Assembly: GCA_016490735.1 (NCBI GenBank) | Contig: JAEMWC010000105.1 | Coordinates: forward strand, 207,001-271,000 | DNA length: 64,000 nucleotides | Direction: 5' to 3' | DNA from: Pachyseris speciosa | Lineage: Eukaryota > Cnidaria > Anthozoa > Scleractinia > Pachyseridae | Shown here: one piece after another, positions 29,418 to 29,603 of the stretch | Layout: the number at the start of each line of letters is the position of its first letter | How positions within the stretch are numbered: the first letter of the stretch is position 1 | Position numbers and translations under genes: made by a program | The notes under the pieces: generated by a model | Told to the model about the DNA's origin: nothing | Databases searched by the model: none | The model's input: the letters and a program-made list of their open reading frames with translations, nothing else

Positions 29418-29603
29418 AGTAGTATACTGACGTCAAACGAATACGGATTCGTAGTTAAGCAAATAAGACTCATTTTCCCATTAAAACCCGCTGAGTGACA
29501 ACTTCCCCACCACCCAAGTTGTCCCTCAGCGGGTTAAAATGGGAAAATGAGTCTTATTTGCTTAACTACGAATCCGTATTCCTGTTGACGCCAGTATACT
29601 ACT
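29418..29603 (+). repeat. 186-bp terminal palindrome, left end
   Basis: AGTAGTATACTG at the tip is mirrored by CAGTATACTACT at 29592-29603. Between them two ~65-bp arms (29440-29504 and 29515-29580) are almost exact reverse complements around a C/A-rich loop, CCCCACCACC. The terminus could fold into one long hairpin, unlike a simple terminal repeat. It may be an origin or a protein-priming end. Confidence 0.92.

Follow-up and report, generated by a model that had tools for sequence, protein, structure and literature searches.

Introduction

Polintons (Mavericks) are assigned a position close to the root of many eukaryotic DNA viruses, and we know of no case in which their copying or integration has been watched directly. 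Hairpin transfer, the mode of end replication that long terminal palindromes bring to mind, would yield termini in both flip and flop orientations, and MVM-type ends of a single orientation exist as well.

Vertebrate Mavericks most often end in the motif (AGT)2//(ACT)2 and have duplications of 6 bp, and the Mavericks of the swamp eel carry the end motif (AC)3A; neither "hairpin" nor the stem "palindrom" occurs in the main text of that report (PMC8097293). Polinton polymerases (pPolB) are described as containing a terminal-protein domain and a vOTU protease (PMC11071308). Bidnaviruses have a polinton-type protein-primed PolB (PMC4061559), and their termini are devoid of palindromes and form a panhandle (PMC4938981, PMC4061559). 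The hairpin ends of vaccinia can depend on their structure and mismatches rather than on their sequence (PMC8956199). Among the best matches listed in a search of titles and abstract openings, no description of palindromic Polinton ends was found, and their newness is unproven.

Boundaries, Genes, and Termini of the Element

The window, a stretch of 64,000 nucleotides from Pachyseris speciosa, contains an element whose ends could be placed by comparison with its own target site. The site without the element was found eight times, at 88.5% identity, in the tandem units of the host array within the window (e.g., at 862-983 and 53073-53194). We therefore delimit the element to positions 29418-51044, flanked by a 6-bp target site duplication (TSD), CTGCTG, at 29412-29417 on the left and 51045-51050 on the right. 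Because the empty site fixes the insertion to the base, the palindromes described below are the exact ends of the element and the outer arm is complete. The terminal inverted repeats (TIRs), which include these palindromes and are 95% identical, extend over 29418-29918 on the plus strand and 50544-51044 on the minus strand; the repeat search itself had reported 505 bp at 95% (29414-29918 versus 50544-51048), and the outer edges were set by the empty site. The host array, whose unit measures about 3651 bp, occupies positions 1-29417 and continues from 51045 on, with the element inside one unit; array markers lie at 750, 4401, 8052, and so forth to 22655 and again at 52961, and two tRNA matches are found at 52012-52084 (+) and 52840-52912 (−).

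The element contains a retrovirus-type rve integrase (33307-34176, minus strand; Pfam rve E = 6.6e-8, 33.2 bits, cut-off 32.6), which, together with the long TIRs with (AGT)2//(ACT)2 tips and the 6-bp TSD, identifies it as a Polinton/Maverick. A region of broken frames at 30660-33578 (+) was assigned to a family B DNA polymerase from a QMDTDSNY motif recognized by eye and a weak Pfam match to DNA_pol_B_2 at 31954-32601 (E = 0.0065, 15.8 bits, under the cut-off of 25.8), and comparison of this piece with solved structures gave no useful match. The ORFs at 44710-46678 (+), for which Pfam returned no match, are by their place candidate capsid genes. Nested in the element are a LINE-type endonuclease ORF (40757-41767, +; Pfam Exo_endo_phos) and a fragment at 35168-35983 (+), which we take to be RT-like and whose only Pfam match, to ALKBH8_N, was below the cut-off; the ORF domain scan also revealed a collagen-repeat ORF (42512-43057, −). 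As the LINE-like endonuclease ORF sits inside the element, the window copy is probably old. In the 20 ORFs scanned of this decayed copy, Pfam detected no HUH/NS1-type domain. A parvovirus-type PLA2 domain, proposed in the first-pass annotation of this DNA, likewise had no Pfam match among the ORFs scanned in the element and reduces to a short HD-type motif, ARQHDHEY, near 44148 (+) in broken frames, which we judge to resemble a phospholipase A2 active site.

Full mirror symmetry amounts to 186 bp at either end of the element, 29418-29603 on the plus strand and 50859-51044 on the minus strand, in agreement with the same annotation, which had described both termini as 186-bp palindromes with near-perfect arms and the right end as a repetition of the left in design and length. 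The left palindrome consists of an outer arm, the apical loop CCCCACCACCC, and an inner arm, with AGTAGT as its tip on the outside and ACTACT on the inside; read outside-in, the right palindrome has the same orientation. The arms resolved by the repeat search (29439-29504/29516-29581 and 50881-50946/50958-51023) measure 66 nt, are 95% complementary, and are separated by a spacer of 11 nt. The mirrored tips that had been noted are present at both ends, except that the outermost tip on the right reads CAGTTTACTACT, one base off the CAGTATACTACT originally quoted. Folding as DNA gave −85.4 kcal/mol for the left end, against −13.8 ± 2.8 kcal/mol for shuffled sequences (z = −25.6), and −81.7 kcal/mol for the right end (z = −22.5); with 0 of 200 shuffles equal to either end, the folding-energy check suggested at the outset came out clearly in favor of the palindromes. 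Thirteen further palindromes of 80-300 bp were detected in the window outside the element, none of them with the element's tip.

Palindromic Ends across the Genome

The genome searched was the window's own (983.7 Mb), the sole genome tested. A search with the left end gave at least 80 matches, both palindrome strands counted (40 of 128 candidates scored). Of 36 palindrome-anchored loci that were fetched, 29 had an almost complete palindrome (170-228 bp) at the match, and in the other seven (L015, L016, L018, L026, L028, L037, and L042) the palindrome was partial, interrupted, or absent. The key test of the initial observation, inspection of the termini of related elements, thus supported it in this genome: end palindromes of about 100-214 bp recur across several families, most of them tipped with (AGT)2 and one with (AC)n. 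Palindrome lengths are 183-196 bp in family A, 203-207 bp in family B, 187-207 bp in family C, and 184-214 bp in family D, which has the (AC)n-like tips. We folded 26 ends, two from the window and 24 from fetched loci; left out, mostly as duplicates, were both L012 ends and the ends of L024, L029, L033, and L034. The self-complementarity of 32 ends ranged from 0.75 to 0.94.

Integrase genes related to that of the window were located close to ends of families B and C (on C84, C567, and C540). None of the best integrase matches listed falls inside a family D element, and family D is therefore classed as Polinton by its ends alone. Several loci are duplicates of single insertions (C424/C1513; C540/C552/C1039; C271/C1436/C904). 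On C1513 (L023, L024, and L029) and C424 (L021 and L033-L035) we observed family B ends multiplied with host flank, some about 5.7 kb apart. Ten ends of family F were chosen by their match to the palindrome part of the query, so that 10 out of 10 in this set is no frequency. In viral contigs, no relatives emerged with the core pattern, and none with the integrase, for which alignment confirmed 0 of 7 pattern-matching stretches.

A sample selected independently of the palindrome was drawn from the matches of the window integrase, of which there are at least 137 in the genome (135 of 4388 candidates scored). Twelve of these 137 were taken, and 5.5 kb were fetched beyond the gene toward the expected end. 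Six stretches contained a tipped palindrome of 100-179 bp, those of L051 and L055 being the weakest, two were truncated, and four had no recognizable end. In the truncated pair, L054 and L061, the inner tip and apical stem are kept and the outer arm is broken off (in L054 as judged by eye). A strict scan over the 66 kb of integrase-anchored sequence returned five palindromes, all tipped with AGTAGT/ACTACT when one mismatch is allowed; L055 fell under the strict filter, and a 460-bp palindrome of another kind in L062 lies outside its size range. The sampled ends are 0.37-0.65 identical to representatives of families A-D, with identity counted over the longer sequence of each comparison, so that length contributes to the difference, and the six palindromic ones have little in common with family A beyond the tip, to which five of them add a motif resembling TCAAACRAATACC. 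Six PolB-anchored stretches (27 kb, from other element groups), which were not shown to reach the element ends, contained no palindrome in the strict scan; of the three pairs of copies among them, two can be aligned along their full length and one from base 449 onward. A genome-wide search for family B polymerase gave at least 127 matches (80 of 2627 candidates scored), including several open frames of 1345-1346 aa.

Three of the six contigs with sampled palindromes (C603, C579, C578, C146, C1132, and C1539) were searched for the opposite end. For C603 and C579, the palindromes were confirmed as termini by the opposite end together with a duplication, and for C578 no opposite end was found within 8 kb. 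In C603, the two end palindromes lie 16.1 kb apart with the integrase inside and a duplication of AAAAG. Palindromes at both ends combined with a matching 5- to 6-bp duplication were seen in the window element, C43 (TTTGAG, 6 bp), C603, C858 (CTTTC, 5 bp), C540 (GGAAT, 5 bp), and C271 (AATTA, via its duplicate copy), and the duplications of C255, C318, and C552 match at four of five positions. C579 has a near-perfect left palindrome and a right end devoid of the inner arm, with CTTTC as a perfect duplication on both sides; the inner arm was therefore either lost later or is dispensable for integration. Relatives that lack the inner arm, which had been named as grounds for refuting the original claim, are represented by this one end, to which two C68 ends devoid of the outer arm can be added (L016 and L018; inner arm and loop kept, break at the loop); the palindrome is otherwise common to related elements.

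Other damaged ends were also recorded. The outer arms of L015, L054, and L061 are broken about 34-40 nt from the tip (L054 by eye), near the position of the unpaired pocket of other families described below, by chance or at a cleavage-prone site. L026 and L037, both on C56 and with flanks alike, have 79-bp palindromes that correspond to the apical core only. In L028 (C74:583919-588039), the end palindrome is apparently split by an insert of about 1.7 kb within the outer arm.

Pairing between the Two Arms

Pairing was analyzed in two alignments. A3 holds 16 of the 26 folded ends, from families A-C (family D, two C424 rows, C1039, and both C540 rows, the family C exceptions, being left out), and A4 holds 11 of the 12 family F ends, C904 being omitted as a duplicate of the C271 right end. 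In A3, 90.5% of the cells in 87 pairs are paired, and 25 of these pairs (83 cells) have changed on both sides. In A4, 94.7% are paired over 56 pairs, of which 13 (42 cells) have changed on both sides, 11 of them in the outer stem. In both alignments, 0 of 500 shuffles reached the values for pairing and both-side change or the covariation score, and controls in which the structure was slid were only 36-56% paired. One of five measures, that of further pair types, was not above the shuffles, as 54 of 500 (A-C) and 317 of 500 (F) reached it. Related copies inflate the covariation counts, but kinship is probably not the whole story, given the low pairing of the slid controls and the agreement of families A-C with family F. 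Since the two halves keep matching while their letters change, the ends are probably foldable DNA structures, although the covariation may reflect arm-to-arm copying rather than selection.

The 214 mismatches in 2722 pairs of the 32 ends comprise 51 G-T, 55 A-C, and 108 of transversion type, the commonest kind, many of them in the unpaired pocket; family F has 5 G-T and 10 A-C mismatches in 620 pairs. As G-T is not in excess over A-C, pairing appears to matter at the level of DNA and not of a single RNA strand. Except for one cell, AGTAGT/ACTACT does not vary in either arm of the 16 A3 and 11 A4 ends.

The Unpaired Pocket and the Orientation of the Ends

The fold of families B, C, and F, like that of L051 and L060, is interrupted some 28-37 nt from the tip by a mismatched pocket. 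In the three families, each side of the pocket is conserved in sequence, while the surroundings match. In most ends of family A, a bulge of one or two bases around position 20 takes its place, and L058 has no pocket. Because of this unpaired pocket, outer and inner arms can be told apart. Compared with its family reference, the end as it stands beats its reversed form in 18 of 18 ends of families A, B, and D and in 10 of 10 of family F, counts that include some duplicate rows of one insertion. A single orientation in 28 of 28 ends does not bear out the resemblance to parvovirus termini that had first been proposed, at least for termini of the AAV type, and AAV-like hairpin transfer is disfavored by the fixed orientation. 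In family C the orientation is mixed, two of four rows fitting better in reverse, and all of these rows are copies of one insertion. Judged by their flanks, C540, C552, and C1039 (L030, L031, L040, L041, and L043) are this one insertion. Its copies differ in the direction of the apical loop, and the outer arm of C540a has turned into a duplicate of the inner one. The loop inversion and arm replacement in family C may be due to later recombination, fold-back repair, or an assembly error.

Discussion

The recurrence, covariation, and fixed design of the palindromic tips make it very probable that they are a conserved functional structure of these Polintons, acting at the level of DNA. The fuller statement, that this structure also has a role in protein-primed strand-displacement replication, is put forward tentatively, the replication step being one that we infer. 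The element would replicate as extrachromosomal linear DNA by protein-primed strand displacement, and the displaced single strand would fold its own 3′ end, outer arm onto inner arm, rebuilding a blunt duplex end made of the tip and the next 20 or so base pairs. Terminal protein and polymerase could then restart at the rebuilt end without annealing to the other end of the element, as if the adenovirus panhandle were formed at each end separately, and the duplex, once unfolded, could later serve the integrase. Slide-back initiation of the adenovirus kind is a possible role of the (AGT)2 tips. Copying that always starts from the true tip would keep the orientation fixed, with the pocket telling outer from inner arm. 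This second fold may be redundant, as the 505-bp TIR already allows a panhandle, and it is not needed by polinton-type polymerases as a class, since bidnaviruses, which have no terminal palindromes, use a panhandle. Fold-back ends had initially been contrasted with the linear ends expected for protein priming; this contrast is not forced, as the tip is the commonest of vertebrate Mavericks and polinton polymerases have a terminal-protein domain (PMC8097293, PMC11071308). A covarying terminal structure directs attention to a life-cycle step open to experiment on native DNA, and the palindrome offers a marker for locating the true ends of such elements in genomes.

The alternative that survives best, although we regard it as unlikely, is that the ends are hairpin telomeres, i.e., fold-back, self-primed, or covalently closed ends of the mobile form that are resolved by a nuclease as in parvoviruses and poxviruses. 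This nuclease would be a viral nickase or else the integrase of the element itself, which would act on the copies of the tip that border the palindrome on either side. Long terminal palindromes with the tip sequence at both borders fit this reading, as do the conversion of the C540a outer arm into a copy of the inner arm, the two loop orientations among the copies of one family C insertion, and the mismatched pocket, which recalls the mismatches reported for vaccinia hairpins (PMC8956199). The inversions, however, occur only in duplicates of one insertion and may be later events or assembly errors; in addition, the ends of families A, B, D, and F all keep one orientation, the ORFs of the decayed copy gave no HUH/NS1 match, and the tip is the usual Maverick motif of PMC8097293. 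A specific version, true hairpin telomeres with the rve integrase doubling as the nickase that resolves replicated hairpins, is improbable. If true, it would combine protein-primed with rolling-hairpin replication in one element and could plausibly link Polintons with bidnaviruses and parvoviruses.

Somewhat less probable than hairpin telomeres in general is that the palindromes are a by-product without function, arising when a broken end is healed by fold-back self-synthesis, with the arms made or kept alike in the process. The conversion of the C540a outer arm to inner-arm sequence is what such healing would produce, and the changes in family F come blockwise when judged by eye. On the other hand, families B, C, and F conserve both sides of the pocket amid matching surroundings, palindrome lengths are family specific, and the same design is present at both ends wherever both were seen, save in C579. 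We also consider it improbable that the two inverted tip copies at each end only provide a site, paired or cruciform, for the integrase to bind, with no role in replication: the near-invariance of AGTAGT/ACTACT in both arms is in accordance with such a site, yet a palindrome of 100-214 bp exceeds what an integrase generally needs, and the single-arm end of C579 has a normal duplication.

Selection on RNA pairing, with transcripts of the tips giving rise to small or regulatory RNA, is very improbable. Any long inverted repeat yields a stable RNA hairpin, but the palindrome stops exactly at the insertion point and G-T mismatches (51 versus 55 A-C, and 5 versus 10 in family F) show no excess, on which ground an RNA-level hairpin is disfavored. 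Finally, a chance local inversion or a small foldback MITE at the element ends can practically be dismissed, common as other host palindromes are (the 13 in the window outside the element and others in L063 and L065), because the co-terminal design with the element's tip occurs in many insertions and families with the duplications outside the palindrome; copies throughout the genome, together with the empty site, rule out a copy-specific palindrome, and a duplication that flanks the whole element, not the palindrome alone, does the same for a foldback MITE at the window.

Returning to the conserved, foldable DNA end that we favor, its features can be set against those of known systems. The telomeres of linear Streptomyces replicons combine palindromic ends with protein priming, as we propose for this element, and differ from it in being bacterial and in having several short palindromes. 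With parvoviruses (AAV and MVM) the element shares a terminal palindrome at both ends, and the small mismatched pocket of MVM termini is comparable to the one described here. Unlike parvoviruses, the element shows no flip and flop in families A, B, D, and F, has no NS1/HUH match in the ORFs scanned, is integrated with a TSD, and carries an rve integrase; its fixed orientation counts against AAV-type ends and is compatible with single-orientation, MVM-type ends. Poxvirus telomeres are likewise imperfect hairpins with mismatches that matter, but they are closed (PMC8956199) and occur in both flip and flop forms. Bidnaviruses resemble the element in their polinton-type PolB and differ in having termini without palindromes. 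Adintovirus-like Polintons/Mavericks share with the element the rve integrase, the PolB region, the long TIR, the 5- to 6-bp duplication, and the (AGT)2//(ACT)2 tip, while the (AC)n-like tips of family D compare with the (AC)3A motif given for swamp-eel Mavericks in the main text of PMC8097293. What sets the elements described here apart is that the tip of the TIR is itself a long conserved palindrome.
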